Source: Lentilactobacillus raoultii (GTDB lineage: Bacteria > Bacillota > Bacilli > Lactobacillales > Lactobacillaceae). Taken from it: DNA of 64,000 bases. Made by a program: the position numbers and the translations under genes. The notes below the pieces were generated by a model. That model saw nothing but the letters and a program-made list of their open reading frames with translations, was not told the DNA's origin and did no database searches. This document shows positions 11,034 to 45,868 of this stretch, in pieces. Each line of letters opens with the position of its first letter. Within the stretch, counting starts at the first letter, position 1. The stretch is taken from contig NZ_LS422982.1 of assembly GCF_900411375.1 (NCBI RefSeq), positions 1 through 64,000 on the forward strand, written 5' to 3'.

Positions 11034-11149
11034 GCGGATTCAAGCGGTTAATCTACGAAGGCTAAGGCGTCAAGAGGTGAAAAGCCTGACTTTGGCTTTT
11101 TGCCTCTTGATCCCTTAGACGTAGTAGATTGCTTGAAGGAGATGTCCTA
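11034..11149 (+). repeat. Interspersed covariant hairpin repeat, one unit (forward)
   Basis: A long imperfect hairpin with paired blocks AATCT/AGATT, CTAAGG/CCTTAG, TCAAGAGG/CCTCTTGA and a core AAAAGCC/GGCTTTT, flanked by GTGAGCGGATTCAAGCGGTTA. It is the first of a family found at eight intergenic places in the window. Here it follows ilvC. Confidence 0.8.
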
Positions 11150-11237
11150 CTAACAAGCGGTTAGATTCCAAGATTATTTTCTAACATGTTGATTAAATTG
11201 TGAGCTTTCCCCCTCACAACTAACTAGGCAATTAAAC

Positions 11238-11282
11238 GAAAGGACTGAATGAAAACCCACTCCGGTTTATTCAGTCCTTTTG
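11238..11282 (+). terminator. Terminator after ilvBC
   Basis: AAAGGACTGAAT and ATTCAGTCCTTT form a 12-bp stem, ending in TTTT, about 210 bp beyond the ilvC stop and after the hairpin repeat. The T run overlaps the start of the next transcription unit. Confidence 0.85.
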
Positions 11283-11309
11283 AATACATATACAATCAAG
11301 GAGGCAATT

Positions 11310-12092
11310 ATGGAACGAATTTTGAGATTTGATGACGTCTCGGTGACTCGCGGCAAGAAAAAAATTCTGCACCATATTAATTGGCAGGTAAATCAAAATG
11401 AAAACTGGGCCATTTTAGGCTTGAACGGGGCGGGTAAAACGACCATGTTGAAAATGATTCATGGTGATCTATGGCCAACAACTGGTCAATTGGAAGTTTT
11501 GGGTGGCGTTTTTGGCCACACCAATATTCCCGAACTAAAAACTAAGATTGGTTGGGTCAGTAATGCGCTTCAAGACCAGCTGCATACCGGTGATCCGGTT
11601 GACTTGATTGTGCTTTCCGGAAAATTCGCCAGTATTGGGATTTATCAGGAATTTTCACAGTCTGAATTAGATGAAGCCCGTCAAATCTTAATCGATATGG
11701 GTGGCCAAAAACTCTTGGGTAAAAAGTATGCGGTACTGTCGCAGGGAGAACGCCAACTGGTGTTAATTGCCCGGGCAATGATGGCACATCCCAAATTACT
11801 GATTTTGGATGAACCTTGTAACGGTTTGGATTTATTTGCCAGGGAAGAATTGTTGAGCCGAGTTGCCAGGATTGCGGAAATGCCCAATCGGCCAGCTTTA
11901 TTGCTGGTGTCCCACTACACGGAGGAACTATTGCCATGTTTTAATCACGTTTTATTGCTGCGTTCGGGTCAAGTGATTAAGAAGGGCGCCCGTAAGCAAG
12001 TCTTAACGGCAGATAGTTTATCTGACTTCTATGAAAAGCCAATTCAAACGGTCACCATTGATGGTAATCGATTGGCTGTTTATCCTAAATAA
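11310..12092 (+). CDS. Stand-alone ABC transporter ATP-binding protein (YlmA-like)
   Basis: 260 residues. Walker A GLNGAGKTT at about 37-45, signature LSQGERQ near 158, and Walker B LLILDEPCNGLD near 182. A switch His occurs in LLVSHYTEE. The signature reads LSQGE rather than LSGGQ, as in the YlmA/ModF-type soluble ATPases. No permease gene is adjacent, so the partner is unknown and a non-transport role is possible. The start at 11310 follows AAGGAGG; an upstream in-frame ATG at 11280 lies in the preceding terminator. Confidence 0.85.
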   Translation: MERILRFDDVSVTRGKKKILHHINWQVNQNENWAILGLNGAGKTTMLKMIHGDLWPTTGQLEVLGGVFGHTNIPELKTKIGWVSNALQDQLHTGDPVDLIVLSGKFASIGIYQEFSQSELDEARQILIDMGGQKLLGKKYAVLSQGERQLVLIARAMMAHPKLLILDEPCNGLDLFAREELLSRVARIAEMPNRPALLLVSHYTEELLPCFNHVLLLRSGQVIKKGARKQVLTADSLSDFYEKPIQTVTIDGNRLAVYPK

Positions 12093-12147
12093 TGACTGAA
12101 TTTGTAGGGTAACTGTCTGCTTATGAATCCCATTTTAGCAAAATCTA

Positions 12148-12198
12148 AAAAATCTCGTATGATCAACATGTTAAGACGTTGACGATACGAGATTTTTT
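12148..12198 (+). terminator. Terminator after the ABC ATPase gene
   Basis: AATCTCGTAT pairs with ATACGAGATT, with inner GTCAAC-type pairing, and is followed by a run of T. The remaining sequence to 12372 is AT-rich and holds the presumed promoter of the surface protein; no clear boxes were seen. Confidence 0.75.
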
Positions 12199-12372
12199 TA
12201 ATCTATTTATGGCTTTTAGACAAAATAAATTATTTTGACTAAATTTAATGGCCAAAATGGCATAGTTTCTTCATGAATTATTCTAAGAATGGTTAAATTT
12301 TCCTGTTAAGCTAATAAGCGTAAATTAAAAATGTCTAATTGTAACCATTAGCAACCCATGGGGAGGATAACC

Positions 12373-15300
12373 ATGAAGTTCTTAAGTAAAAAATTGATTA
12401 TTCAAATAGTAGGTGTGTTGACACTGCTTTTTGGTAATTTTTTGACGGCTGGACAGGCTTTGGCAGAAGCTGCCAAACCTGGCGATGTTTCTGTAAGTCA
12501 AGCAGCCTTAGTCAATGAACGAGAGCAGTTGATCAATCAGACAAAAGTTGGTGAAAAAGCGAAGCTGAGCTTTAATTTAACGGTGGGCAGCCGTTCTAAG
12601 AATGGGAAGGTGAGGTTTAATTATGATGATCAGTTGTTAAAGATCAAACCAAGAAGATATCGGTACGCAAATGGTGCGACTCGGGTAGTGATCACAATTG
12701 GCGCCGATGAGTCCGAAATTCGTTGGCGCGGCGCCGATGGTCGGGTGACAGTGCCAGTGAGTTTACCGACTACGTTTCGACGACCAGCTGATCAACTGGC
12801 GCTAAAATTGACGATTGCTGGGCAAAAAATTCAATTGCCAGCGATTAGCGTCTTGAAAAAATCAGCTGATTTAAAACAAGAAAAAGCGGCGACTGCTGGT
12901 GACTTGAAATCGGCGAATCAATTTGAAACAATGCAGCAGCAAGAGCAAGCAGAAGCTGCTCAGAAGGCGAGTCAGCAGCAACAGCAACAAGCTTATTTAG
13001 AGAAGAAACAGGCAGCCGATCAAAAAAAGGCGGCTGAAAAACAACAGCAAGCAATTGCTGAAAGCAAGAAGCAACAGCGTTCTGCAGACAATCAACAATC
13101 GGTAAAGACACCTAAAGCGACGGCCGATTCTGTCAAAAGTCAGAGTAGCAGTTCGGAATCAACACTTAAAGAAAGCGTTACTGACAGTCGGAAAGCTATC
13201 GAAAAAACGGCTGAAGCTGATGATGAGGGCGAGCCGCCAGCGGGACCAACTGCTGGCGTCCAGGAATCTTCAAAAAGCCAATCAGCGGTAAAACGGGTCT
13301 TTACTCGAAGCGACGAATCAGAAGGCACACGATCTATCAACGAATTGGTTAAAAATTATTTCTTTGATAAAATCAGCTACACCATTCATCAAGATGGTAA
13401 TTCATCAACGCATGACTTGCCGACAGGTGAAAATTCAGGCAACGTTCAGATCCCTGAAACGATCCGGGGAAGTGACAGCGTTGATTTACATTGGGAATGG
13501 AGTACGGGCAACATTGAAGACAAAAATGCTTTCCCGGCTGATCAACGAATTCAAGATGGTGACTATTACGAGTTTGACTTGAAAGGGTTCAAATACGACT
13601 ATGGTCAAAATGAGCGGATTAAACAGCCAATTGTTGCGAGTCAGAATAATCGACGGGTCGGATATTTTATTATGACGCCGACGGATGACCCAGGCGTTCA
13701 AAAGATCCGGATTGTCTTTACACCGGGCGAATTGGCTAATACCGATGTCAGATACAGTACTAATCTCTCGACAACTTTTGATGAAAGTAAGGAAGAAATT
13801 CACTTTGGTCAGGTGGCTGAAGATGGTGGCGGCGTGCAGGTAGCTAAGGCGTCGATCGATATTCGAAAGGATGGTAATTGGAATACTCAAATTGTTGACG
13901 GGAAAGAGTACAATGACTATTCAAAGGTAAAATGGACGTCTGTTTTTAACGTTAAGAGATCTGAAGGCCAAGATCAAAGAGGAGCCTCAAAAGTCGTCCT
14001 GCTTGATCAGTTTGAGCAGCGCGGGGGCTACGACAATAGTGGTAAATTTGAATATGAAATTGAAGGAATTAAGGATGGTAAGAAGGTCTCCAGCCAGGCT
14101 AAACCTGTAGTGGAGCGGGATGGCACCTCTAAAACAGCCCGATTTACGTTTAATGCGGCCGATATTTTTGAGGACCCTGAAGTAGTGATTACCAAAATCA
14201 CGTTAACGCATACCGCTTCGATTTGGAATTTAAACAATGACCTTTATGAAAATCAAATTCGGGTAGAATCCTGTCAAATTGGCAACGATAAGGTGCAGAC
14301 GGATTGGGCTGAAGCCAGTGTTAAGAACACGAAAGACCATCTTCAAAAAACGATGGATATTTTACCTGGCGGCATTGTCCAAGCAAAAGTGCGGTTCGCA
14401 GTGGACGCCGACGACGATATTGCCAAGCTCACTTTAACAGATAAGGTGCTATCTCAAAAATTTAAATATGATGAAGCATCATTTAAGCTATTTGCCTTAA
14501 ACGCAAGTGGGCGGTATGAGCAGGTTAATTTAGACGAGTTGAGTAACTGGAGAATTGCTGATGATGGCCATTCTTTTGAAATTAAATTTAAAGAAGAAGT
14601 CAAACCTAAAACAGGTCGTCAGGTTTACCGGCTGGAGTATCAATTAAAACCAGACGGTGCGACGAACGAAGATTACAATCCACTGACAAATCAGGTCAGA
14701 TGGAAGGATAAAGAGTACGCTGAAAAAAAGACGTATAAAACGGCTAATGAAAAAACAGCAACCGGTAAGTGGGTCAGTGGCACTTTCGATGACGACACTG
14801 ACTGGGATAAGATGACGACCAGTTGGCGAATTGGTGTCAATTTATTGGACCGTGACATTAATTTTCCGGTTGAGATTGTCGATTTTGATGCGGCTAATGC
14901 TAATACCGCTAATTACTTGAAGTATCAACAATTCTTCGATAACTTTAAGCAGGCCGATGCCGATAGATTGAAGGATTATCTTGACTTTCAGTACCTGCCA
15001 ACCGGGTCTGGGACTCATAGATCAATTGCCTATTACTATGATGCTGAATCAGGTAAGTACTATTGGGGTAACCAGGATGATCAATCAAAACGGGAAGCCT
15101 TTGAGATTAGTTACAATGAAGGTAAGATGACCATTCAGGTTAAGAGTAATCCAAATACGGCAGGTGAGGGTGAACGGGCCAGCCGAAAATTTTATGTCAA
15201 GCTGAGCCAAGTACCAATCGACACCGAGAAGCTGCATCAAGCCCTGGAATCGGACAAAGCACCTGAAAGGTTGTCCAATAGCGCCTCGGTTAAATTTGAT

Positions 15301-18300
15301 GGCGAGAAAAAACAATATTATTCAGCAAGTGTGCCAATTCCAGAACTTATCGCCGAAAACATTTCCAAACGGGGTCAGTTGGACGAGAACTTTCAAGATC
15401 CGGACCACCGTTATATCAATTGGGAAGTCGCGATTAATTATCAAAATTATTTGATTCCTGAAGTCCTCAAGGGAGGCATTCATATTCACGACATTTTTGG
15501 ACCAGATAAAATGATTAATAAGTCAGGCACTAGCAGTACTTCTGCCAATTTACAAGATCTGTCTGGGTTCAAAGAGAGCTTAAAAGTTTCAGTAGCCAAT
15601 CTTTCCGGTGATGGTAGTGAATTAGTGGGTGACCGCCAGCAACTTTCACCGGCTGATTATAAAATTGAGGATCTAAAGATCGATACCAAGCCGGGTGACT
15701 CACTAACCGATTTAACGTGTCGATTCATTTTAACGGAATCCGGGAAAAAGATAGTCGAAGACACCGGTAAGCACGTTTTCGTTTTTGAGTATCAAACTAA
15801 AGCTAATCTCAATAAGCAATCTGATGAACTCAGTCATCTTGGTAAATGGGTTTTCCACAACCAGGTTAAAATGACCAAGGGCGAAGGCGCAGAAGCAAAA
15901 TCACTGGAGACCAAAGCTGAAGTCGGTTATGCCGACAATGGGTATTTACTGCACAAATATGGTAAGTTGGAGAAAATAACACCGAACAATCAGGAATTAT
16001 CTGGGATTAAATGGACAAATTTAATTAACGGGGAAGGTAAAACGATTTCCGGTGATCACATTAAAATTGTCGACCAGCTGAAAAGTGTCAATCACGCTCA
16101 TTTGAACACGGATGACCCAGCGTACCAGCCGAAGCTGTACTATGCTAAACGAACCTTGGATAAAGAGAGTCAGACGGTTTACTATGAACCGGATATGGAT
16201 CGGGAATTCCCTGCGGATAAGTATAACATTAGTTACAGCGATGATTTATTAACGATGACAATCGATTTCAAAGATGATGACGGTAAATTCAAAATCGATG
16301 CGCCACTCATGTTGGTTTATCATACGGTCATTAATGACGGTAGTGCAGGTAGTGAATATGGGAATACCATTACCTTGCATGTCGGTGAGAAAAAATTTAC
16401 CGATGGGAGTGTGATTGGTTCCAATATTGAAAGTGGCGCCTCATTTAAACAGTTTGGTGTTAATATCAAGAAAACGAATCGAAACGGCGTGCCGCTGCCA
16501 GGCGTGATCTTCAACTTGGAAACAACGACCAAGCAGGATCCAAATGACTGGCAAACGGTGAAGGGCACTGACGGGCAAGCCATTACCGCAACAACCAACG
16601 AAGACGGCGTCGCCTCGTTTGCAGGACTAGGGACTAAGGACGTGTATCGAGTGGTCGAGGCTAAAGGAAACGATGATCATTACTTTACGAACTTTATTTC
16701 GGAAACGATCACCTTTGAAAAGGCCGAAGATTATTTGTATCACGTCCAGGCTAAAAATCCGTATAAGGGCGATTTGGAAATTCACAAACAAGTTAATTCA
16801 ACGGATCCGAGCCATGCCAATGATCCCTTTGAGTTTCACTTACGGGCTCGTGACAATGATGGAAATTATCCGAAGCCCAATCCACTGGGCCCTAGTGGAA
16901 CAGATGGTCAACTGCCGGATTTTGGTTATGAAATTTATGAGGGCGACCAACAGGTGACTAGTGGGACCGTGACCTTTGGTGATGAGAGCAATACGCTGGC
17001 AAAATTACCAGCCATTAAAGACAATCAGCACATCGTTATCAAAGGGTTACCTCAAAACCTGCTTTACCAAGTTGAGGAAATCAATAGTACCACATTTAAA
17101 ACCAGTCACGAAACAAATAATCTAACAGCCAAAATAAATCAAGAAAATCAAACGGGCAAACGGACGGATTTACTTCAACTGCAACAAGGGAAGGGGACTA
17201 ATCCAGGCATTATCACGTTTACCAACCGCTTTGATACGGAAGAAAAACCGGCTGAGTTTAAATTCACCAAACGTTTGAAAGATCCAAGCACCGAAAGTGA
17301 TCGTCAAAAGCCGTTTGAGTTTAAGCTGGCTCTCTATAGCTCGACAAATGAGCTGATGGATTATGATGGGAGAATTAAAGGTGTCAAAGTAACGGCTGAT
17401 GGGACGACGAGGACGGATGTTTGGTTTGACTTTAAAGATGGGCAGGCCACTCACTGGGCAACTTCCAGTGATGGAGCAGCCGATCAAAAGATCACACTGG
17501 CGGATGGAGAGTCCTACGAGAAAATCATGCTGCCAAACGAAAGCCGATTGAAATTGTTTGAAAAAACTGACGATCAGTATTCCTTGGTCAGCTACCAATT
17601 GGATGATGGCAATCAAGTTAAACCAGCTGATCAGGAAGGCGACTTCCATGCGGTGGGACCAATTGAAGCCACTCACCAGTCTGTTACGGTCATTAATGAA
17701 CAACGTGAGAATCAACTGGCTTTCAGTAAGTCAGTGATGGGACAATTGGGTGACCTTAAGGCGTTTAACTTTGAAATCGAAGCTGCTAACGAAAAGACGT
17801 TGGCGGCCATCAAAGAAAAGACCTTTGCGGTTTCGATTGTGAATGCCACGACCGGTCGGCCAATCAATACTGGAAAGGTGACTTTTGATAAAAACGGTCA
17901 AGCTTCCCGGATTAAACTAGGTGAGCTTAATGAAGAACCGTTAACTTTACAGGATGGTCAAAAGTTGATTTTATCCGGCTTACCGACTGATGCAACCCAT
18001 TTTAAAGTAACTGAGAAAATCAATGCATCTGATCCGCAACTAAATTTTGAGACCACTTATTCAGTAGCCGGTGGGGAAGTTCAATCCGGAAGGGTAGCGG
18101 GAATTGAATTGAATACCGGAAAGGTACCGAATTTAATTGCCTTTACCAATACCATTGAAGATTATGTACCATTAATTGTTAAGAAAACGGTTAGTGGGGG
18201 CGCACCAAAAGATCAAAAATTTGAATTTGACATGACGATTGCGCCAAGTGAACGGCTAAAAGCGTCAAAAGTTGAATTTAATGGCCAATTAATGACGGCC

Positions 18301-20340: not shown

Positions 20341-20344
20341 CGAC

Positions 20345-21661: not shown

Positions 21662-21677
21662 TTTTTTGAAATTGGAT

Positions 21678-21945
21678 TACCGCTGGGCGACGCTCGCTAG
21701 GACAGTTTCACCCAGCAGATTTCTACATGTAAGGGATCAGGTGAGTAAATCCAAAAGCGGGATTTTCCCACCTGCCGCCTTACACTCGAAATCTACCCGC
21801 TGGGTTACACTCACTTGTTTTAGGACAGTTTCACCCAGCAGTACCATTCCATATAAGGGATAGATTGAAAAAATCCAGGTTCAGGATTTTCCCAATCGAC
21901 GCCTTATATTCCAGGTACTAATCGCTGAGCGACACTCACTTTGAC
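21678..21945 (-). repeat. Covariant hairpin repeat, two units (reverse)
   Basis: Two adjacent units (about 21681-21814 and 21815-21945). Read on the plus strand the first pairs TAAGG/CCTTA and CAGGTG/CACCTG around a core AAATCC/GGATTT-like loop. The second pairs TATAAGG/CCTTATA and GATTG/CAATC. They share the ends CGCTGGG...ACACTCACT. These units and their spacers fill most of the gap between panE and the fructosamine kinase gene. Confidence 0.75.
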
Positions 21946-24993: not shown

Positions 24994-25031
24994 ACAAAAA
25001 AAGCTGGCGATCACTCGCCAGCTTTTAAAAA
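24994..25031 (-). terminator. Terminator after the cold-shock gene
   Basis: AAAGCTGGCGA and TCGCCAGCTTT form the stem with A and T runs outside, placed to terminate the cold-shock gene. The rest of 24830-24990 holds only the AT-rich promoter region of the hydrolase. Confidence 0.9.
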
Positions 25032-25047
25032 TGTTAGTTTTTTTAAA

Positions 25048-25251
25048 TTAGTCGTCAACTACAGTTACGTTTGCAGCTTGTGGGCCACGGTCGCTGTCTT
25101 CAACGTCAAGGGTTACATGTTGGCCTTCGTCTAATGACTTGAAGCCGTCTTTGTTGATAGCTGAGAAGTGAACAAATACGTCACCATCGTCAGTAGTAAT
25201 GAAGCCATAACCTTTGTCAGCGTTGAACCATTTAACAGTACCTTGTTTCAT
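25048..25251 (-). CDS. csp: Cold-shock protein (CspA family)
   Basis: 67 residues; an RNA/ssDNA-binding OB fold. RNP1 KGYGFI is at residues 13-18 and RNP2 VFVHF at 25-29, and the start [10 protein letters not shown] is canonical. An AAGGAGG site precedes this ATG; a longer in-frame extension upstream lies in the structured 5' leader and is not coding. The leader carries a GCGC...GCGC palindrome near 25262-25283. Long leaders are usual for cold-shock genes and may fold in a temperature-dependent way. Confidence 0.97.
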
Positions 25252-27787: not shown

Positions 27788-27917
27788 CTAAGACAGTTTT
27801 AGGACAACTCCTTCAAGCAACACCTCTCCTGCTAAGAGATCAATCTGAAAAATCCAAAAACAGGATTTCCCGGATTGACGTCTTAGCATCCGGGTGTTAA
27901 CCGCTTTTGTCCGTTCA
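27788..27917 (-). repeat. Covariant hairpin repeat, one unit (reverse)
   Basis: Plus-strand blocks GCTAAGA/TCTTAGC and TCAATCTG/CGGATTGA with core AAATCC/GGATTT and the shared end TTAACCGCTTTTGTCCGTTCACT. It abuts the stop of the OsmC-family gene. Confidence 0.8.
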
Positions 27918-28337
27918 CTAATTTATGTCAAACGTAAATTCCACCGCTTCCTCCAACGTATTATGGACCGTGCAGAGATGGATCACTTCCTCAATAAATT
28001 GGCGATTTTCCTCTTGATTCAAATTGGTTTCGCAGGTAAGCTTGACATTGATTTTAGTCACTCTTGAGGCACCATTTGCTTGTCGTTCGGTTTCACCGGT
28101 CACCGTCACTTCGAATTTTTTAATTTTGATTGTCGATTTTGGCCGGTTAACTAATGACGCCGCACTGGCACCCAGGCAAGCGCCAACTGCGCCAAGCAAG
28201 TATTGAACCGGGCTGGGGCCGGCGTCCGTGCCACGAAACATGGTGGGCTCGTCAGCGATAAATTGGTGATCGCCAGCCTTGATCATGGTTTGGGCACCAA
28301 TGTTACGATAGGTAGTGTGAACTGTATGGGTTGTCAT
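27918..28337 (-). CDS. OsmC/Ohr family protein
   Basis: 139 residues. One candidate redox Cys lies in GACLGASAASLVNRP (about 54) and a second in HLCTVHNTL (about 124), the spacing expected of OsmC-type thiol peroxidases that reduce organic hydroperoxides. RGTDAGPSPVQYLLGAVGAC is the family signature around the first. AAAGGAG precedes the start. Divergent from a flavodoxin-fold oxidoreductase, which also suggests a redox-stress setting. Confidence 0.88.
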   Translation of the reverse strand: MTTHTVHTTYRNIGAQTMIKAGDHQFIADEPTMFRGTDAGPSPVQYLLGAVGACLGASAASLVNRPKSTIKIKKFEVTVTGETERQANGASRVTKINVKLTCETNLNQEENRQFIEEVIHLCTVHNTLEEAVEFTFDIN

Positions 28338-33555: not shown

Positions 33556-33712
33556 TTAGCTATTACCCGCTGGGCTACACTCACTATTTTAGGACCGTTC
33601 CGCCCAGCAATGTTCTACATGTAAGGGATTGATTTTAAAAATCCAAGAACGGGATTTCCAAAATCAACGCCTTACACTCCGAACATTACCCGCTGGGCTA
33701 CACTCACTTATA
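33556..33712 (-). repeat. Covariant hairpin repeat, one unit (reverse)
   Basis: Blocks TGTAAGG/CCTTACA and TTGATTTT/AAAATCAA around the core AATCC/GGATT, with the duplicated end element CCCGCTGGGCTACACTCACT at both borders. It fills the region between divergent ktrB and codA. Confidence 0.75.
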
Positions 33713-37321: not shown

Positions 37322-37479
37322 TAGTAAATTCCTCCCAGGTGAGTTTGAGCAATATAGTTGTCAAGTTGTATGATATTGATGGTTGTTATAGATCTGATTG
37401 TTGAATAGGTTGATCCTCCTTGGACTTTAGTAATAGTTTACTCTTTTTGAAGCGAAATAGTAGTAGGTGAGGGGATGCT

Positions 37480-37750
37480 AATCGTTTGGCTACGCTCACT
37501 GACTTAGGACAACTCCTCAAAGCAACCTCACTTCAGCTAAGGGATCGATTGGCAAAATCCAGACCCAGGATTTCCCCAATCGACGCCTTAGCTTTCGGAG
37601 GTTAACCGCTTTGATCCGTTCACTGATTTAGGACAACTCCCAAAAGCAACACCGCTCCTGCTAAGAGATCAATCTGAAAAATCCAAAAGCGGGATTTTTC
37701 AGATTGACGTCTTAGCCTCCGGGTGTTAACCGCTTTTGTCCGTTCACTGT
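37480..37750 (-). repeat. Covariant hairpin repeat, two units (reverse)
   Basis: Unit one has GCTAAGG/CCTTAGC and TCGATTGG/CCAATCGA; unit two has GCTAAGA/TCTTAGC and TCAATCTG/CAGATTGA. Both have cores pairing AATCC with GGATT and the shared TTAACCGCTTTTGTCCGTTCACT-type end. They fill most of the 525-bp gap between divergent genes; the remainder is AT-rich promoter-like sequence. Confidence 0.8.
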
Positions 37751-37846
37751 TAACATTGACATCCCCTTCAATTAACGGTATTCTAAAATTTGAACATAAA
37801 TTATGATAATGATTATATCTAAAAAATAGTAAGGGTTGCTGACCTA

Positions 37847-38287
37847 ATGGGTAATACGAAATTAATTCCATACTTAACATTTGAGAACACTAAAAATGCG
37901 CTTGAATATTATAAGCGAGTATTTGGGGCGACGGATGTCACTCGTGAATCACCGACCGAAAAGCAGGCTGAAGCGATGTCCCTTAATCCGGACGTTGATC
38001 TTGATAACCTGACACTTCAGGCAAGCTTTAAGGTGTTGGGACAACAAGTTTTTGCTGCCGACAGCTTCTTAGGTAAACCAGTCGTGTCATCGTTGATTTC
38101 CTTGATGTTGGAGGTCGATGCGCACGATTCCGATGCGGAGACGGCTTTGGAAAATCTCTACAAGCAAGTTGCCGAGTCAGAAGAGGTTAAAGTGATTATC
38201 ACGTTTGAAAAGAAGTCATCCGGTAACAAGTACGGCCAAGTGGTCGATAAGTACGGCGTTACCTGGATCTTTAACGCGGTTAAGTAA
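37847..38287 (+). CDS. PhnB-like VOC (glyoxalase fold) protein
   Basis: 146 residues. IPYLTFENTKNALEYYKRVFGATDV is the standard opening of PhnB/3-dmu-9_3-mt-like VOC proteins, and YGQVVDKYGVTWIFN is their C-terminal strand motif. Catalytic metal ligands are not clear, as in many of these. Function unknown; resistance or isomerase-like roles occur in the superfamily. The ribosome binding site is weak (AAGGG). Confidence 0.8.
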   Translation: MGNTKLIPYLTFENTKNALEYYKRVFGATDVTRESPTEKQAEAMSLNPDVDLDNLTLQASFKVLGQQVFAADSFLGKPVVSSLISLMLEVDAHDSDAETALENLYKQVAESEEVKVIITFEKKSSGNKYGQVVDKYGVTWIFNAVK

Positions 38288-38304
38288 TGGACTCGTAGAT
38301 TAAA

Positions 38305-38353
38305 TAAAAACGAGGGAGAGAGAATTGAGGTAATTTTCTTTCCCTCGTTTTAT
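38305..38353 (+). terminator. Terminator after the VOC gene
   Basis: AAAACGAGGGA pairs with TCCCTCGTTTT, with further GAGAG/CTTTC pairing and a T run. Confidence 0.85.
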
Positions 38354-38388
38354 AATGATTGAGAGGACTAAGGGTGAAAGGGGCGATC

Positions 38389-39066
38389 ATGGTGAGTGAT
38401 TTTGACAAAGTAAAAGGTGTTTTATTCGATCTTAACGGGATTATTACCGACTCGTGGGCTTATCACAGCCGTTCCTGGCAGGAAATTGCCAATCAGTTGG
38501 GCATTAACTGGACGGACGAGCTGGAAGAAGCCATCAAGGGTCGGGATCGAATCGACTCATTAAACGCCATTTTAGCGTCGGCTGGTAAAGCGGATGAGTA
38601 TTCGCTTCAGCAAAAAGAGACACTTGCAGATCAAAAAAATGAGATTTATCAAACGATGTTGGATAAAATGAATCCTGGCGATATTCTGCCCGGCATTCCG
38701 GCATTTCTGGATGAATTAACCGCTAATGATTATCAAATGATTATTGCCTCTGCTTCTGCCAACGCGCCTAAAGAGATTCGCAAACTGAAGCTTGAAAAAT
38801 ATTTTCCACTAATCGTTGATCTAAAGACGATCAAACACAACAAGCCGGCACCGGATGTCTTTGCCAAAGCCGCCGAAATGCTTCATTTGCTCCCGGAGGC
38901 CTGCGTTGGCATTGATGACGGGATGGTAGGTGTTGAATCGATCAACGCAGCTGGCATTGTTTCAATTGGCGTTGGCGATCCACAAGTGCTCCATGAAGCC
39001 GACATTAATTTTGAAAGCACTCGGCAATTGACCCTTGAAAATATCCGTCAGGCTTGGCCCAAGTGA
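38389..39066 (+). CDS. pgmB: Beta-phosphoglucomutase-like HAD protein with D-to-N change
   Basis: 225 residues from the ATG after GAAAGGGG. The sequence follows beta-PGM closely: FDLNGIITDSWAYHSRSW (13-30), KGRDRIDSL in the cap, ASASAN, HNKPAPDVF and the acidic metal pair region IDDGMVG. The nucleophile Asp14 is kept, but the residue two positions on, normally the general acid/base Asp, is Asn16 (codon AAC). In lactococcal beta-PGM the equivalent D10N change greatly slows the mutase. The protein may therefore be inactive, be a phosphatase-like HAD, or use another base. No maltose or trehalose phosphorylase gene is adjacent. It ends 19 bp inside the convergent neighbour. Confidence 0.82.
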   Translation: MVSDFDKVKGVLFDLNGIITDSWAYHSRSWQEIANQLGINWTDELEEAIKGRDRIDSLNAILASAGKADEYSLQQKETLADQKNEIYQTMLDKMNPGDILPGIPAFLDELTANDYQMIIASASANAPKEIRKLKLEKYFPLIVDLKTIKHNKPAPDVFAKAAEMLHLLPEACVGIDDGMVGVESINAAGIVSIGVGDPQVLHEADINFESTRQLTLENIRQAWPK

Positions 39067-39416
39067 GCATCTAAGTATTGTTTTAAAACAACGGCTTGAT
39101 TATGTTCACGATCTTTGGCGCCATAAAGCAGAATGACATTTTCGGCTTTTAGTTTGTCTTGGACAAGGGAGACAAAGTCAGCTACTTGGTCATTTTGCTT
39201 TAATTCATCAAGGTATTTTTGCTTAAAATCAGGAAACTTTTTGGGGTCGTGTGAAAACCATGACCGCAATTCTTTGGAAGGGGCGATTTGCTTTTCCCAT
39301 TGATCCAATTTTGCGTTAACTTTTGAAATTCCCCGTGGCCATAACCGGTCAACCAGAATTCGGTAACCGGACAAATCTTGTGGCTTATCGTAAATTCGTT
39401 CAAGTTTTAGTTCCAT
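39048..39416 (-). CDS. DUF488 family protein (YeaO-like)
   Basis: 122 residues from the ATG after TTGGAGGAA; a longer frame upstream crosses the promoter region. The YRILVDRLWPRGISKVNAKLDQWEKQIAPS stretch and LRSWFSHDP are the DUF488/YeaO signature, and VILLYGAKDREHNQAVVL is the C-terminal motif. Function is not established; Cys is absent from the usual positions. It overlaps pgmB at its 3' end and is divergent from mpg. Confidence 0.88.
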   Translation of the reverse strand: MELKLERIYDKPQDLSGYRILVDRLWPRGISKVNAKLDQWEKQIAPSKELRSWFSHDPKKFPDFKQKYLDELKQNDQVADFVSLVQDKLKAENVILLYGAKDREHNQAVVLKQYLDAHLGQA

Positions 39417-39461
39417 ATTAAAAATTCCTCCAATAGAGATTATTTTGAAAGCTGTGATAAT

Positions 39462-40091
39462 TTGCTTACCAGTGATCCATTTTATGCCAGCGCCCCGACC
39501 GATCAAATTGCCCAAAAAATGTTGGGGATGCTGCTTACATATCAGTCACCCAAAGGTCTAGTGGGCGGCTGGATTGTCGAAACCGAAGCCTATATGGGCC
39601 AGTTGGATTCGGCAGCTCATGCTTTTAAAGGACGACGAACCGCTTCAAATGAACCATTATACGGGCCTCCAGGTACAGTTTACATCTATTCAATTCATGG
39701 GCGATACCTACTTGATGTGGCTGCCCAGCCAAAAGACGTCCCACAAGGAGTTCTCATTCGCGCCGTTGAGCCGTTTGTCGGCCAAGAAATTATGATGAAA
39801 AATCGCACCAAAACCGGTTGGGACTTAACCAATGGCCCAGGCAAACTCATGGAAGCCTTTGGAATTTCAGATAAGAAAATGAATTTTGAGATCTTCGGTG
39901 ATAGTAAACTAAACATCGATCAGCATCGTAAAAAAACGCCTAAAAAAATTGGCGTCTCGAACCGTGTCGGCGTTTCAAATCAAGGCGATTGGGCTGTCAA
40001 ACCGCTAAGGTACTTTGTGGCGGGAAACCCGTACGTTTCCGGAATGAAGAAACGGGGGATGGACCTTACTGATTTTGGCTGGCGGGCTTAG
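39462..40091 (+). CDS. 3-methyladenine DNA glycosylase (AAG/MPG family)
   Basis: 209 residues, starting at TTG; no other start is available in the open frame. It excises alkylated purines. Family motifs: GWIVETEAYMGQLDSAAHAFKGRRT, with catalytic Glu in ETEAY, YGPPGTVYIYSIHGRYLLDV, GVLIRAVEP and LTNGPGKLMEAFGI. The C-terminus has the usual RYFVAGNPYVS. Only 45 bp separates it from the divergent DUF488 gene, so promoters must overlap. Confidence 0.92.
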   Translation: MLTSDPFYASAPTDQIAQKMLGMLLTYQSPKGLVGGWIVETEAYMGQLDSAAHAFKGRRTASNEPLYGPPGTVYIYSIHGRYLLDVAAQPKDVPQGVLIRAVEPFVGQEIMMKNRTKTGWDLTNGPGKLMEAFGISDKKMNFEIFGDSKLNIDQHRKKTPKKIGVSNRVGVSNQGDWAVKPLRYFVAGNPYVSGMKKRGMDLTDFGWRA

Positions 40092-40099
40092 GAAATGTT

Positions 40100-40366
40100 G
40101 ACCGTTTGGCTGCGTTCACTGGATTAGGACAACTCCCAAAAGCAACACCGCTCCTGCTAAGAGATCAATCTGAAAAATCCAAATGCGGGATTTCCCAGAT
40201 TGACGTCTTAGCATCCGGGTGTTAACCGCTTTTGTCCGTTCACTGGATTAGGACAACTCCGCCAAACAGCATCATTCCATATACGGGATCGATTAGCCAA
40301 ACCCAAAACCAGGGTTTCACTAATCGACGCCGTATATTCCAGATGCTAACCGTTTGGCTGCGTTCA
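40100..40366 (-). repeat. Covariant hairpin repeat, two units (reverse)
   Basis: Unit one pairs GCTAAGA/TCTTAGC and TCAATCTG/CAGATTGA. Unit two pairs TATACGG/CCGTATA and TCGATTAG/CTAATCGA; both arms of the latter have changed together relative to unit one. The last unit abuts the pgpA stop, between convergent mpg and pgpA. Confidence 0.8.
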
Positions 40367-40867
40367 CTAATTGTTTCTATGCGCAATCCTTGCCGATACC
40401 GCGCTGGCAATCGCGCCGACAATATCGTCAATAAACGTGTAAGAAGTGCCATTCTTGGCTTCGTCCAGTTTTTTAATGACCCCGGTCTTATCTCGATCAA
40501 TGTATCCATAGTTGGTGATGCCAATGGTGCCATAGATATTGGCGATGTTTAACGCAATCCCTTCATCAACACCGAAAACGCCGGAATCGTTCATAATGAT
40601 GCTTTCTAATGGTTCCTGGAGTTGGCCTTCGGATGCCAATCGGTCCAATTCCAAACCAACCATGGCGTTATTCAGCACTTCCCGTTTATGCAGGACGTTA
40701 GTGGTGTCCTTTCGAACCTCTTCCATAGTGAGATTCGGGATGAATGGTTTTTGTAAATTAATGGCCATTTGGGAAATGTCATCCGGCGTAATCCCACGTT
40801 CCTTTAAAGCTTTGATAACAAAGTTATACGCTTTGGTGTCTGGAAATTTAAAATTCTTATTGTTCAT
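40367..40867 (-). CDS. pgpA: Phosphatidylglycerophosphatase A family protein
   Basis: 166 residues. The C-terminal half has GVDEGIALNIANIYGTIGITNYGYIDRDKTG and YTFIDDIVGAIASAVSARIAH, the PgpA/YutG signature with acidic residues for phosphate and metal handling. Gram-positive members are more soluble than the E. coli enzyme, and the N-terminal helical half resembles YutG. Expected role: dephosphorylating phosphatidylglycerophosphate. A strong terminator separates it from map upstream. Confidence 0.85.
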   Translation of the reverse strand: MNNKNFKFPDTKAYNFVIKALKERGITPDDISQMAINLQKPFIPNLTMEEVRKDTTNVLHKREVLNNAMVGLELDRLASEGQLQEPLESIIMNDSGVFGVDEGIALNIANIYGTIGITNYGYIDRDKTGVIKKLDEAKNGTSYTFIDDIVGAIASAVSARIAHRNN

Positions 40868-40884
40868 TTATAACTAACCTCCAA

Positions 40885-40931
40885 TTTAGAAAAAAGCCGG
40901 GTCAAAAATTAAATTTTGCACCCGGCTTTAA
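40885..40931 (-). terminator. Terminator after map
   Basis: AAAGCCGGGTGCAAAATTT pairs with AATTTTTGACCCGGCTTT, followed by T on the minus strand. Confidence 0.9.
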
Positions 40932-41003
40932 TCGTTTATAGTTATTCAGACAACTGCGTCAAGCGCGGTTCTTTATTTTAAAGATCAATTCAAAAGCTTT
41001 GAG

Positions 41004-41828
41004 TTAGCTTCTTGAATTGATGTCTTGCGTTTCGTGATAGATATACTTTGCGTCAATGTCCGGATCCTGAATCGTCAGAATTTTTGGACCGTCTTTGGTG
41101 ATGGCTAAAGTATGTTCATATTGTGCCGAAGGACTACCATCAGCTGAGACGTAGTAGGTCCAATCATCTGCTTTGTCATAACGATCCTTGATCTCCCAAG
41201 TGCCGGTGTTGACCATTGGTTCAATGGTGATGGTCATTCCTTCCTTGAGTCGTAAGCCACGATGGGCAACCCCATAGGCCGGCACATTTGGCTCTTCATG
41301 CATTTTTGGCTGAATGCCGTGGCCGATCAGTTCCCGAACATCGCCCATGTGGTGTTCATCTTCAACGTAGGTCTGGATGGCAGCACCGATGTCACCAAGT
41401 CGATTACCGATGACAGCTTGGTCAATTCCAAGGTACAAAGCTTTACGGGTAACTTCCATTAAGTTTTTAATTTCTGGTGAAACGTCACCGACAGCGTAAG
41501 TCCAGCAAGAGTCACTTTCAAAGCCATCTTTATTGACAGTTAAGTCGACTTTAACAACGTCGCCGTCTTTCAAGATTAGTCCCTTACGCGGAATGCCGTG
41601 GGCAACTTCATCATTAACCGAGACACAGGTGGCAAATTTGTAGCCCTCAAAGCCCATTTCTGAAGGGTAGGCATGGTGATCTTTAATGTATTTTCGGGCG
41701 AATTCTTCAATGTCCCAAGTGTCCAAGCCTGGCTTGATCATTTTTCTTAAGCCTAAGTGGACACCGGCCAAGACTTTTCCGGATTCAGCCATTTTTTCTA
41801 TTTCACGTGGTGATTTTAATGTAATCAA
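41004..41828 (-). CDS. map: Methionine aminopeptidase, type I
   Basis: 274 residues. It removes the initiator Met from nascent proteins. Metal ligands are visible in KVDLTVNKDGFESDSCWTY (two Asp), GHGIQPKMHEEP (His), TIEPMV (Glu) and SAQYEHT (Glu). The first domain segment FATCVSVNDEVAHGIP is canonical. The C-terminal tail after the last motif is about 35 residues longer than minimal MetAPs. Confidence 0.96.
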   Translation of the reverse strand: MITLKSPREIEKMAESGKVLAGVHLGLRKMIKPGLDTWDIEEFARKYIKDHHAYPSEMGFEGYKFATCVSVNDEVAHGIPRKGLILKDGDVVKVDLTVNKDGFESDSCWTYAVGDVSPEIKNLMEVTRKALYLGIDQAVIGNRLGDIGAAIQTYVEDEHHMGDVRELIGHGIQPKMHEEPNVPAYGVAHRGLRLKEGMTITIEPMVNTGTWEIKDRYDKADDWTYYVSADGSPSAQYEHTLAITKDGPKILTIQDPDIDAKYIYHETQDINSRS

Positions 41829-41935
41829 GTTTTTCTGCTCCTTAGGAATGATTTAGTACTTATAGACGATTAAACCACAATTGGTAGTCGCCTTGCAACC
41901 GGAGTGAGGAATGACAATGCTGATATCATAACCCA

Positions 41936-41983
41936 AACAAAATGAGGTTGCCAGCAAAACGATCGTTTTACTCCAACCTCGTA
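41936..41983 (-). terminator. Terminator of the 55-aa gene
   Basis: On the minus strand GAGGTTG and CAACCTC flank an inner AAAACGATCGTTTT palindrome, followed by ATTTTGTTT. Confidence 0.75.
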
Positions 41984-41984
41984 A

Positions 41985-42152
41985 TTATGCTTCGTCGATG
42001 ATCCCTTTTTGAAGGGCTTCCAAAATTAACTTAACTTCAGTAATTTTGGAATCAACTAAATATTGTGTTGGTTCATCTTTTTCATTTTTGGCGGTATTCA
42101 TTTGATCATTCAAAAATTTTAATTGATCATGAAGATATTCAGCTAGTTTCAT
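41985..42152 (-). CDS. Small hypothetical protein, 55 aa
   Basis: Begins MKLAEYLHDQLKFLNDQMN; helical and charged, with no membrane segment. GAGGTGA lies just before this ATG; the frame extends upstream only into a hairpin repeat. Function not recognised. Confidence 0.7.
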   Translation of the reverse strand: MKLAEYLHDQLKFLNDQMNTAKNEKDEPTQYLVDSKITEVKLILEALQKGIIDEA

Positions 42153-42218
42153 GATGGTCACCTCACAGGTTCTCTTTACTACTATTATATATCTTTTGGA
42201 AAAAGTGTACAAAAATAT

Positions 42219-42484
42219 GTTCAGTGAACGGACAAAAGCGGTTAGCACCCGGAGGCTAAGGCGTCAATCTGGGAAATCCTGTCTTTGGATTTTCCAGATT
42301 GATCTCTTAGCAGGAGCGGTGTTGCTTTTGGGAGTTGTCCTAAATCAGTGAACGGACAAAAGCGGTTAACCTCCGAAAGCTAAGGCGTCGATTGGGGAAA
42401 TCCTGGGTCTGGATTTTGCCAATCGATCCCTTAGCTGAAGTGAGGTTGCTTTGAGGAGTTGTCCTAAGTCAGTGAACGGACAAG
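42219..42484 (+). repeat. Covariant hairpin repeat, two units (forward)
   Basis: Unit one (about 42221-42346) pairs GCTAAG/CTTAGC, TCAATCTGG/CCAGATTGA and AATCC/GGATT. Unit two (42347-42480) pairs AACCTC/GAGGTT, GCTAAGG/CCTTAGC and TCGATTGG/CCAATCGA. Each is preceded by CAGTGAACGGACAAAAGCGG. Confidence 0.85.
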
Positions 42485-42504
42485 AGCGGTCACACCCTCT
42501 AAGC

Positions 42505-42912
42505 TCACTTTCTTTGCAACTTGCGTTGAACCCAGCTGGTGATCCAATAGACCAAAAAGAAAATTGTGAGGAAAAAGCTGCTGGTGCAAACCAAGTAACT
42601 GATTGTCCAAGCCGCCTGTAAATAATCAGGAAGTTTAATTGATTGAAATGAAAAGAAAATAAAGGTAAATAGAATGTCACAGCCAAAAGCGACTCGACGT
42701 CCCAACTTTGAGTTGGACAATCCTTTTCGGTCTTGGGCAATCAAATAGGTCATGGAATGAACTGAAATGATTAAAGAACCACTGGCCAAGACAAAAAAGA
42801 TTAATTTTTTCTCTGGCGTCGTGTTCAGAAAGAATGCAAAAAGCAGGGCCATGAGGATCCCTAAAACATCTAGAACACTAAGCCAGCGATATCGTCTGAT
42901 TGTTGATGCCAA
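42505..42912 (-). CDS. Hypothetical integral membrane protein, 135 aa
   Basis: Four hydrophobic helices (about residues 10-30, 36-58, 73-93 and 98-122) with a basic loop (DRKGLSNSKLGRR) and a basic C-terminus. No family recognised. A hairpin repeat follows immediately. Confidence 0.7.
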   Translation of the reverse strand: MASTIRRYRWLSVLDVLGILMALLFAFFLNTTPEKKLIFFVLASGSLIISVHSMTYLIAQDRKGLSNSKLGRRVAFGCDILFTFIFFSFQSIKLPDYLQAAWTISYLVCTSSFFLTIFFLVYWITSWVQRKLQRK

Positions 42913-43147
42913 TTTTTAATCAAATCCTTTATAATTCAAAGTTTGTTCATGATGATATGATTTGTTGAATTGAGAAGCGTTATCTTTTTGGGGTAACAAA
43001 TTGATGCGTATTCATTAGTAGATACTTCTTTCAAATTACCAAATCATTTAGTGCTCGTCAAGATTTGACGTGGCCATGATGAATTTCTATCGTGACGGTT
43101 GTACTTCGCTGACGTTAAAGCTATCCTAATGATAGGGGGCGACAATA

Positions 43148-43351
43148 GTGACAGATAAATTGTGGTTAAAATGGTTCTTCGTATTCTTCTACTTAATAAT
43201 GGGCGTCTTACTGCTAATGGGTCACAGTATGATTGTGATGGCCATGATGGCGGTGGGGATGCTGTTGGAATCTTTGGATAGCTTAATTGAAACTTATTTG
43301 AATCGAGAACCCAAGGAAACGAGCGGCCTGCAGAAACGCCATCAAGCATAG
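43148..43351 (+). CDS. Small membrane protein, 67 aa
   Basis: GTG start with ATAGGGGG eight bases upstream. Two adjacent hydrophobic helices (about 8-28 and 28-46), then a polar tail (NREPKETSGLQKRHQA). Function not recognised. Confidence 0.6.
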   Translation: MTDKLWLKWFFVFFYLIMGVLLLMGHSMIVMAMMAVGMLLESLDSLIETYLNREPKETSGLQKRHQA

Positions 43352-43409
43352 GCAAATGACCCGACTGTTTTGATGATTGGAAAATGGTCGGTTGATTTGC
43401 ATATGTGAA

Positions 43410-43463
43410 ACTAAAAAGCAACGGTGAGTTGAGAAATGTCAACTTCATCGTTGCTTTTTGTGT
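43410..43463 (+). terminator. Bidirectional terminator before pepO
   Basis: AAAAAGCAACG and CGTTGCTTTTT with an inner GAGTTG/CAACTTC, between the small membrane protein and convergent pepO. Confidence 0.85.
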
Positions 43464-43477
43464 TTTTAGAGACTGAA

Positions 43478-45454
43478 TTACCAGATTTTAACTCGATCTT
43501 CCGGCTTCAAATACATGCCGTCGCCGGGTTTAACCTCAAAGGTTGAATAAAAGTCGTCCAGATTTTTAACTTGAACGTTGGCCCGAAGTTCAGCCGGGGC
43601 GTGAACGTCAATGTTTAATAGCAATTGTTTGTACTGGCTTGTGGCCTTCATACGCCAGATTTTTGCCCAGTTAATGAAGAAGTCATACAAGTTGTAATCC
43701 GGCTCGTTCTTGGCGGCTTCATCAGCACAACTTAAACCACCGGCATCGGCAATATTTTCCGAAACCGTCAGCTTACCGTTAACCTTACTACCGGCAAATG
43801 GCAGCCCGTCGAATTCTTTAATCATTTTATCGGCTAATTTGGTGAAGTAATCGTGATCGGCTTTGGTCCACCAATTGTTAAGGTTACCAAATTCATCAAA
43901 TAGCGAACCGTTGTTATCAAAAGCGTGTGAAATTTCGTGAGCCATAACAGCGCCAATCCCACCATAGTTTTGACTTGAATTTTGATCCAAACTGTAGAAA
44001 GGTGCCTGCAAAATCGCTGCTGGAAAGACGATTAGGTTTTTAAATGGATCGTAATAGGCATTAACGGTGCTGGCACTCATTTCCCATTTAGTCCGATCAA
44101 CCGGTTTGCCAAGTTTAGCGTAATTATCGGCTAAGGCAACCTGACCAATTTGAGTCATATTGTCAAACAGGGTTCCGCCTTGACTTTCAGGCGTGATCTT
44201 GAATTTGTATTCCAACTCGTCGATGTGGTCGGGATAACCAACGTGTAAGCCAAGCTTGTCCAGTTTAACAATGGCTTTTTGACGGGTTTCTTCGCCTAAC
44301 CAAGTGTTGTTTTGAAGGCGGTTTTTATAAACACTGATCATGTTGCGAACCATGTGCTCAACGTCCGCCTTGGCTTTTGGCCCAAAGTATTTCTTGGCGT
44401 AGTAGTCACCAATGGTTTGGCCAAAGGTTCCAGTTGCCAGATAGAAGGCCGACTTCTTTTGCGGAGTGGCTTCTTTTTTGCCTGAAAGGGCCCGGCTGAA
44501 AGTCGATCCCGTTTGCCGAAATTCTTCAGATAAGTATCCAGCGGCAGCATAGACCGTGTTGACCAGCATCCAATTCTTCATATCTTGGAAACTGTTATCG
44601 TTTACGATGTCATCCAGAGCCTTAAAGAATTGTGGCTCAGTGACGATGATTTGCTCAGGAACTTTTTCAAAGAGGCCGGCTGCCAAGCTGTTTAAATCAA
44701 GATGACTGCTTGATTTGGCGAAGTCGGTAAATTTCTGTGGGTTGTACATCTTGCTGTAATCAGCGGCCTCTTCGGCTGACTTGACGTGAGGCGCGATGGC
44801 GGCATCGAATTTCTTGGCCGATTCAACAATCTCATCGGCTTCGTTGCTGCTGTAATCGGCCAATATCAGGAGTTGGCTGAGCGTCTTGGTCAGGACCGGC
44901 ATTAATTGAGCATAGGCTGGATTATTGTTTTCGTAATAGGTGCGGTCCGGCAGGAATAGGCTGGGACTGTTGGCAAACAGTGCGTTGACCTGAGTGTTCT
45001 TCATATCAGGTTCAACGAAGAAGCCCAAGGGCAATGGAAAACCGGTTTTAACCCAGTCGGCAATTTGATGGTTTAAATCATCAAAGCTTGACAGATTTTC
45101 AATTTTTTCCAAATAGGGTTTTAATGGTTCGGCACCGTCAGCATCCCGTTTTTTGAAGTTTTGAGCTAAGTCATAAAGCTTCAGCATTTCCGAGAATGGC
45201 GCTTCAAAACTGTCATTATTTTTGGCTTTCGCATCGTCCAAGTCACTCATGAGTTCCTTGTCGATGTTGTCTTTGAGATCCATAAAGCCACCGGTCGAGG
45301 AATGATCAGCGGGAATTTTGGCGGTCTTTTCCCATCGGCCGTTGACGGCTTGATAAAGGTCATCCTTTAACAGTGATTCATCGATTGAATCATCGGTGGG
45401 CTGATCGGCTTTGCCACCTTGTGCGTTGGTTGTCTTCATAATTACTTTTTTCAA
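43478..45454 (-). CDS. pepO: M13 family metalloendopeptidase PepO
   Basis: 658 residues from a TTG eight bases after GGGAGGA; Met6 is an alternative. It is a neprilysin-type zinc endopeptidase for oligopeptides. VMAHEISHAFDNNGS carries the HExxH motif near residue 503 and ENIADAGGLSCADEA the third zinc ligand near 565; the VNAYYDP segment is also typical. No signal peptide, so cytoplasmic as in other lactic acid bacteria. Three hairpin repeats lie just upstream. Confidence 0.94.
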   Translation of the reverse strand: MKKVIMKTTNAQGGKADQPTDDSIDESLLKDDLYQAVNGRWEKTAKIPADHSSTGGFMDLKDNIDKELMSDLDDAKAKNNDSFEAPFSEMLKLYDLAQNFKKRDADGAEPLKPYLEKIENLSSFDDLNHQIADWVKTGFPLPLGFFVEPDMKNTQVNALFANSPSLFLPDRTYYENNNPAYAQLMPVLTKTLSQLLILADYSSNEADEIVESAKKFDAAIAPHVKSAEEAADYSKMYNPQKFTDFAKSSSHLDLNSLAAGLFEKVPEQIIVTEPQFFKALDDIVNDNSFQDMKNWMLVNTVYAAAGYLSEEFRQTGSTFSRALSGKKEATPQKKSAFYLATGTFGQTIGDYYAKKYFGPKAKADVEHMVRNMISVYKNRLQNNTWLGEETRQKAIVKLDKLGLHVGYPDHIDELEYKFKITPESQGGTLFDNMTQIGQVALADNYAKLGKPVDRTKWEMSASTVNAYYDPFKNLIVFPAAILQAPFYSLDQNSSQNYGGIGAVMAHEISHAFDNNGSLFDEFGNLNNWWTKADHDYFTKLADKMIKEFDGLPFAGSKVNGKLTVSENIADAGGLSCADEAAKNEPDYNLYDFFINWAKIWRMKATSQYKQLLLNIDVHAPAELRANVQVKNLDDFYSTFEVKPGDGMYLKPEDRVKIW

Positions 45455-45520
45455 ACTGAATTCCTCCCTGCTAAACGTCATTGAAATAAGTATAGGCTAT
45501 TGAAGGGGGAAAGAAAAGCA

Positions 45521-45868
45521 GTGAGCGGACAAAAGCGGTTAGCACCCGGATGATAAGACGTCAAACTGGGAAATCCCGGGTTTGGATTTTTCAGTTTGAT
45601 CTCTTATCAGGAGTGGTGTTGCTTTTGGGAGCTGTCCTAAGTTCAGTGAGTGGATTCAAGCGGTTAGCATCTGGAATATAAGGCGTCGATTGGGGAAATC
45701 CCGGGTTTGGATTTTTTCAATCGATCCCTTATATGGAATGATGCTGCTTGAAGTAACTGTCCTAAGAAGAGTGAGTAGATCAAAGTGGTTAATTTACGGA
45801 GACTAAGGCGTTCGTCGGCGAAAAGCCTGGGCTTGGCTTTTTGTCGATTAATCCCTAGATCACTCAAG
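45521..45868 (+). repeat. Covariant hairpin repeat, three tandem units (forward)
   Basis: Unit one pairs TGATAAG/CTTATCA and TCAAACTG/CAGTTTGA. Unit two pairs AGCATC/GATGCT, ATATAAGG/CCTTATAT and TCGATTG/CAATCGA. Unit three is more decayed, with AAAAGCC/GGCTTTT as core. It is the largest array in the window and fills the gap between pepO and the 90-aa gene. Confidence 0.85.

Follow-up and report, generated by a model that had tools for sequence, protein, structure and literature searches.

A widespread family of apparently mobile, strand-specific hairpin repeats at gene edges in Lentilactobacillus raoultii and other Lactobacillaceae

Introduction

Among the described bacterial repeats, those closest in kind to the element reported here are the REP sequences, defined as palindromes of 20-40 nt that carry GTAG or CGTC as an unpaired tag at one end (PMC3733652), and the ERIC elements of enterobacteria (~127 bp), which form one long intergenic stem-loop (PMC2267715). 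In the present work, we analyzed a stretch of 64,000 nt (positions 1 to 64,000 of contig NZ_LS422982.1 of Lentilactobacillus raoultii; hereafter, the window), which carries a family of intergenic hairpin repeats with units of ~120 nt. We show that these repeats constitute a real, widespread and mobile family that is REP- or ERIC-like in kind but lacks the REP marks tested. Its unusual traits are a constraint on the shape of a single strand and insertion at gene edges.

According to the excerpts of the literature consulted, REPs and the associated BIMEs, REPINs and RAYT proteins form a system in which the repeats are palindromic, intergenic, present in ~100 or more copies per genome, commonly arranged as heterodimers and in many cases located near stop codons (PMC3733652, PMC12306157, PMC2817692). 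The hairpin family shares these properties, with 103 units in 63 arrays in L. raoultii. However, its units are far longer than REPs, start with AGTG or AGAG, possess no GTAG or CGTC end tag and stand in head-to-tail arrays, and no RAYT/Y1 gene was found in L. raoultii (0 matches to PF01797). The comparison with ERIC concerns length and hairpin form only, both of which are similar; the portion of the ERIC description used mentions no tandem arrays, stop-codon insertion or strand bias (PMC2267715).

MITEs resemble the hairpin family in being short, non-coding and mobile, presumably with help in trans, and, as expected for MITEs, sites free of units occur in relatives. The usual target-site duplication is not established: the spacers between units copy the flank, the 3' ends of arrays not clearly so. 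The attC sites of integrons act as a folded single strand in which the extrahelical bases are fixed and the stem sequence is free, and new units are added at one fixed site. By analogy, the hairpin family may work in a similar manner, with a folded strand, fixed unpaired bases, free stems and additions at one site, but no cassette genes were seen between its units. Group IIC introns insert at T-runs, as the units of G071, a genome from another genus, may do; the units are, however, far too short for such introns, and several element-bearing genomes gave no reverse-transcriptase match. The original prediction knew of no described family of this form, and our searches agree: no unit matched Rfam 15 above the gathering score (whole window, with a permissive scan of 37400-46000), and no description was found in the open-access literature searched. 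A Lactobacillales motif called Lacto-int, which is given no Rfam number (PMC2864571), could not be compared with the units.

Results

Each unit is one bulged hairpin of ~120 nt. From the 5' end of the sense strand, AGTG is followed by an outer stem, a 5' bulge of 4 nt (GGTT), a stem of 7 bp, an internal loop and a stem of 8 bp; next come a C.C mismatch, which adjoins a nearly constant G.U pair, a long stem at the top and a loop of 7 nt. The predicted eight intergenic loci with about 14 units were confirmed, with 14 units (1+2+1+1+2+2+2+3) in both orientations; with a covariance model built from 13 window units (the unit at 45770 was left out), these 13 scored 111-137 bits and the degenerate 14th 41.9 bits. 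The stretches previously regarded as shared flanks are indeed shared by the units, but they are not flanks, as they pair together as the outer arms of the same hairpin. The 20-mer CAGTGAACGGACAAAAGCGG has 8 matches at <=3 mismatches (maximum 0 among 100 shuffles), while AGTTGTCCTAA is less telling, with 32 matches at <=2 mismatches against 16.4 expected (no shuffle gave 32).

The predicted covariation of the paired blocks was found already in the window, where 27 of the 42 pairs exhibit at least one pair-keeping double change (alignment A1, 13 of 14 units, aligned by MAFFT and not fitted to the model; the degenerate unit was left out). Among the 103 L. raoultii units (alignment A2), double changes occur in 37/42 pairs, 96.7% of cells are paired (76.9% after shuffling), and the covariation score is 0.548, compared with 0.182 for shuffled and 0.045-0.082 for slid alignments. 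Moreover, 87 rows from other Lentilactobacillus and other genera show double changes in 42/42 pairs and a score of 0.796 versus 0.191 shuffled. Since A2 and the 87-row alignment were fitted to the model, their counts lean toward it; relatedness was controlled by shuffles and slides only, and cells count sequences rather than independent events. A lack of covariation beyond phylogeny, named beforehand as the outcome contrary to the hairpin claim, was not seen in these shuffle and slide tests. The claim that structure and not sequence is kept stands strongly for structure, but sequence is partly kept too: the AGTG/AGAG start, the CGGTTA bulge and TAAG..CTTA are conserved, as is TCCTA in Lentilactobacillus.

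The mismatches tolerated within the stems are strongly asymmetric. G.T outnumbers A.C in L. raoultii (376 vs 37, or 132:37 without the three pairs in which G.T is the rule), in other Lentilactobacillus (54:6) and in other genera (83:15; in this count outside L. raoultii 6/87 rows, antisense or partial hits, were dropped, although they were kept in the covariation count). Given that G.T on one strand is A.C on the other, the excess shows which strand must fold; hence, what is kept is one strand in its single-stranded form. By eye, we also observed shrunken units of ~45 nt (L065, about 6130-6180; L067, about 1040-1090), which keep both ends and have lost the top of the hairpin, and which are likely deletion products.

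The units and stubs of the window are as follows (strand in brackets; within a locus in order of coordinates).

11029..11149 (+): u1, single unit, 111.5 bits, E 2.1e-29; starts 1 nt past the ilvC stop codon
about 11150-11172: damaged stub after u1 (by eye)
about 21678-21697: truncated start of a further unit beside u2a (by eye)
21698..21815 (-): u2a, second unit of a 2-unit array, 111.7 bits
21821..21940 (-): u2b, first unit of the array with u2a, 122.3 bits; 5' end abuts a TTGACA box preceding a fructosamine kinase gene (promoter reading by eye)
27800..27919 (-): u3, single unit within the osmC stop codon, 124.9 bits
about 33557-33586: stub of a further unit beside u4 (by eye)
33590..33708 (-): u4, single unit between the divergent trkH and amidohydrolase genes, 121.3 bits
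about 37474-37501: stub beside u5a (by eye)
37505..37624 (-): u5a, second unit of a 2-unit array, 135.2 bits
37629..37748 (-): u5b, first unit of the array with u5a, 135.2 bits; a TTGACA box lies 7 nt from its 5' end (by eye)
about 40095-40121: stub beside u6a (by eye)
40125..40244 (-): u6a, second unit of a 2-unit array, 136.7 bits
40249..40368 (-): u6b, first unit of the array with u6a, within the pgpA stop codon, 131.1 bits
42223..42342 (+): u7a, first unit of a 2-unit array, 132.3 bits
42347..42466 (+): u7b, 128.5 bits
about 42470-42495: stub of a further unit after u7b (by eye)
45520..45639 (+): u8a, first unit of a 3-unit array, 135.1 bits; lies upstream of a peptidase M13 gene (Pfam)
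45645..45764 (+): u8b, 135.4 bits
45770..45887 (+): u8c, degenerate last unit, 41.9 bits, E 1.9e-9; similarity stops at profile position 85

Elsewhere in the window, a weak model match at 50106-50154 (-; 17.2 bits, E 0.023) may represent a decayed unit or simply an ordinary stem-loop. Two other regions matched Rfam above the gathering score, namely a cspA thermoregulator at 24996-25398 (-; 90.6 bits) and the Listeria sRNA rli28 at 57748-57934 (-; 49.8 bits), and an open reading frame of 2616 codons spans 12358-20208 (+).

The strongest argument for mobility comes from sites that lack units in relatives. Where the same two genes are neighbours, no unit profile match was found at locus 1 in G005 or at locus 2 in G007 (one readable relative each), and the profile matched in 0/9, 0/10 and 0/11 relatives at loci 3, 4 and 5, respectively. 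At locus 6, no unit was seen by eye in 20/23 relatives, and the remaining 3 carry units of other sequence at the same junction. These unit-free sites, together with the varying orientation, indicate that the units are mobile elements. Hence, among the functions suggested by the original prediction, a REP/MITE-like element or the substrate of an unseen recombinase fits best, given the unit-free sites and the constant 5' insertion point, while a transcript-end structure is not supported as the main role, since units occur in both orientations and beside gene starts as well as gene ends. A terminator reading for G071 is not supported either: the test for a perfect stem plus T-run was passed by 2/42 arrays, and only T-runs were shown.

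The family is not confined to the window. The covariance model was searched against the whole genome and other Lactobacillaceae, as had been proposed, and matches were obtained in both. In the L. raoultii assembly (3.07 Mb, 29 contigs), where the genome-wide model search scored 150 of 1412 candidates, the 103 units (E<=1e-9; 13 lie in the window) form 31 single, 27 double, 2 triple and 3 quadruple arrays; fragments shorter than one unit are left out of these counts. Fifteen other 20-kb blocks of this genome, picked for having no listed hit, gave no match at E<=1e-9. The model matched in 19/24 Lentilactobacillus genomes and, with stricter filters than those of the genus search, in 108/397 genomes and 18/40 genera of Lactobacillaceae. 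Two further samples were used below. The named-species set covers L. kisonensis, L. rapi, L. fungorum, L. dabitei and a few other loci, and comprises 142 arrays after 15/157 near locus ends were dropped; its loci were fetched by a 5'-end pattern, so the set favours intact starts, and the model search took 99 of them and the profile search L060-L168. The G071 sample consists of 42 arrays from 40 loci chosen among the best-scoring matches.

Single copies of ~75-79 bits in many genera were considered as independent families, and this was rejected, as they represent one copy on a copper-resistance segment. In many lactic acid bacteria, plasmids carry one near-identical unit copy next to the gene of a CopY-type copper repressor (L187, L190-L204); a 401-bp query from this site matched 95 plasmid records (74 over at least 80% of the query), of which 16 are from Listeria. 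A search of plasmid and phage DNA with a window unit matched no relatives. Two diverged units are neighboured by ordinary-looking open reading frames.

The 5' end of the units lies at gene edges. In L. raoultii, AGTG is found at -5 to +6 nt from the stop of the sense 5' gene in 23/28 arrays, and stop-codon placement was observed in 21 of 26 cases, compared with 2.6 expected under uniform insertion. Part of the stop codon comes from the element in 15/22 such cases in L. raoultii and in 21/35 in the named species, in which 35/142 arrays are located at stop codons. At u3, osmC ends AATTAG, while the closest relatives have AATTAA, and the two closest relatives end at the same codon as L. raoultii; in 21 of the 23 matches listed for pgpA, the alignment reaches the same last codon, and three of these matches carry units. 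Orthologues that share the last codon indicate that these genes end there naturally (pgpA, and osmC in the two closest relatives). Moreover, genes ending KIW and QTLK carry different units at, or within ~8 nt of, the stop in several species.

Other boundaries are favoured elsewhere (all motifs were counted by array, not by overlapping pattern matches). In 44/142 named-species arrays, CCTCC, the complement of the Shine-Dalgarno sequence, ends 5-9 nt upstream of the AGTG end, while the control decades at 40-49, 50-59 and 60-69 nt upstream hold 0, 1 and 3 arrays. In G071, T6 ends 0-9 nt upstream in 9/42 arrays and T5 in 14 (control decades 0-2), and CCTCC lies 0-19 nt upstream in 9/42 (control decades 0-2). 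Other L. raoultii copies stand, by eye, immediately upstream of promoter-like boxes that belong to the antisense neighbour. That species differ in the boundary favoured points to a choice of target and not to selection alone. A G/C-tract was dropped from the proposed target, since GGGG occurs in only 8/63 L. raoultii arrays; this does not change our confidence in the mechanism discussed below, which rests on the stop-codon, CCTCC and missing-site results.

Arrays are fixed at the 5' end and ragged at the 3' end. A unit tail within 25 nt upstream of the first unit was found in 0/63 L. raoultii arrays, while in 39/63 a further unit start lies <=16 nt past the last TCCTA, with stubs varying from about 10 to 85 nt (short ones by eye). 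Similarly, nhmmer found downstream remnants at 27/63 arrays, one of which is a complete neighbouring unit, and upstream ones only for that neighbour pair. The spacers repeat the last 4 nt of the array 5' flank in 31/146 cases in the named species (6.8 shuffled, maximum 15) and in 5/75 in L. raoultii (0.7 shuffled, maximum 4). Neighbouring units are no more similar (0.708) than units of different arrays (0.701), next-but-one units are more alike (0.853, n=8), and for 62/72 units of multi-unit arrays the most similar unit lies in a different array. The flank copies in spacers, along with the unlike neighbours, suggest repeated insertion at the same flank rather than duplication in place.

The idea of an R-core-R element with a functional right-hand R was dropped, as the 3' stubs are ragged. 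After the TCCTA of stop-codon arrays, the named loci show a motif like ATCTATGTA....AGAAC in 17/35 (0/59 antisense Shine-Dalgarno arrays, 3/47 other arrays), which may represent the beginning of a different and older family of hairpins. In G071 (L336-L375), many unit 3' ends are followed, by eye, by a shared stretch like GGGCGTAAACCAGAACATAAGTGGCC, a possible second module.

We also searched for candidate mobilising enzymes. Y1_Tnp (PF01797) is present in 7/24 Lentilactobacillus genomes and in 4/15 of a further genome set, and gave no match in L. raoultii, G001, G006, G007, G009, G071 and G043. Reverse transcriptase (RVT_1) matched in 8/24 Lentilactobacillus genomes and in none of the element-bearing G001, G004, G005, G006 and G009, and IS110 matched in 3/15 genomes. 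Y1/RAYT, RVT_1 and IS110 were therefore rejected as the mobiliser, as their presence does not track the elements. No transposase-bearing relative was found, although a longer autonomous copy was not sought systematically. Pairs of divergent reverse-transcriptase genes (G007:C111, 209235-211166; G018:C8, 154316-156164) are perhaps defence loci.

Discussion

We herein propose that the hairpins probably form a family of non-autonomous mobile elements that are moved in trans via a folded single strand. The folded strand, the unit-free sites in relatives and the constant 5' end at gene boundaries are observed, and from them we infer the enzyme, target and stacking steps. An enzyme acting in trans would recognise the folded single strand (DNA or RNA) by its shape and its fixed unpaired bases, and would join the 5' end of the unit to A/T-rich target sites, which by species would be stop codons, or lie beside Shine-Dalgarno sequences or promoters, or be T-runs. 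New copies would be set at the same target again, pushing older ones downstream, and old units would decay into ragged stubs. Such stacking and decay would yield head-to-tail arrays, unlike neighbours, spacers that copy the flank, and fixed 5' but ragged 3' ends. That this represents a new class of mobile element, with a folded strand recognised by shape, an enzyme that belongs to none of the Y1, reverse-transcriptase and IS110 families, aim at gene boundaries and same-site stacking, we put forward only tentatively and regard as rather doubtful.

Much of this evidence could be read in a different manner. The placement at stop codons and Shine-Dalgarno complements and the one-strand G.T excess would suit RNA-level regulatory hairpins under selection whose mobility is old: sense hairpins past stop codons would make mRNA more stable or halt ribosomes, an effect reported for REPs of E. 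coli that lie no more than 15 nt from a stop codon (PMC12306157), and antisense ones near Shine-Dalgarno sequences would tune translation. We find this unlikely, as the same site is unit-free in relatives that keep both flanking genes, both orientations occur and the boundary motif varies among species. It is conceivable, too, that the family spreads mainly by recombination and gene conversion among existing copies, without a dedicated mobiliser, given that a whole dimer is common to two loci (u5, 37493-37749, and u7, 42222-42478; 96% over 257 nt) and that next-but-one units are more alike than neighbours. However, such exchange makes no new sites where relatives have none, and the spacers copy local flanks above chance, so we judge it improbable.

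Two readings name a specific enzyme. Retroposition, in which unit RNA would be reverse-transcribed into A/T-rich nicks, with the fixed end primed and the ragged end left by an early stop of reverse transcriptase, could explain the constant and ragged ends, the A-rich junctions and the arrays of several units; it is nevertheless highly improbable, because reverse transcriptase was found in a minority of the genus genomes and in none of the five element-bearing genomes listed above, and because the template would be the antisense strand, yet the G.T excess is on the sense strand. The chance that the units are REPs moved by a Y1 (RAYT) transposase since lost from some genomes seems very slim as well. 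The copy number, the intergenic and palindromic character and the pairs of unlike neighbours, which resemble published REP families as far as the excerpt describes them (PMC3733652), are outweighed by the lack of Y1_Tnp matches in the seven genomes named above, by the unit length, and by the end tag: neither GTAG nor CGTC stands at the end, and the CGTC present lies within the stem.

Several observations weigh against the proposed movement in trans via a folded strand. No mobilising enzyme was found among the Y1, reverse-transcriptase and IS110 families, and the unit-rich G001 and G006 gave no match to any of the three, although genes may be missing from draft assemblies (that of G001 has 2 contigs). 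The G.T excess fits RNA and single-stranded DNA alike. In the named species, stubs are rarer (26/142 by pattern, 28 by nhmmer), and unit sequence lies upstream in 5/142 arrays. There is no clear flank copy at array 3' ends: it occurs at 0/11 stub-free ends in L. raoultii and at 17/106 in the named species (9.0 shuffled, maximum 19), and before the stub in 2/47 (2.4 shuffled) and 7/25 (3.2, maximum 7), respectively. First units are not clearly younger, with a best match elsewhere of 0.916 compared with 0.896 for later units. Finally, locus 5 also lacks ~40 nt present in relatives (by eye), 7 of the 9 unit-free relatives of osmC run one or more codons further, and the 5' motifs of L. raoultii are weak by array (A5 at 0-9 nt in 13/63, GGGG at 10-19 nt in 8/63, controls 0-3).

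Taken together, the family combines strong strand-specific covariation with insertion within a few nt of gene edges, in a group of food bacteria, and may represent a new route of DNA mobility in lactic acid bacteria. If an enzyme is tied to it, this would be a small insertion system that targets gene boundaries; if none is, our results suggest that hairpin repeats may spread without the transposase families tested. Our results also show that some Lentilactobacillus genes owe their stop codons to a mobile element.

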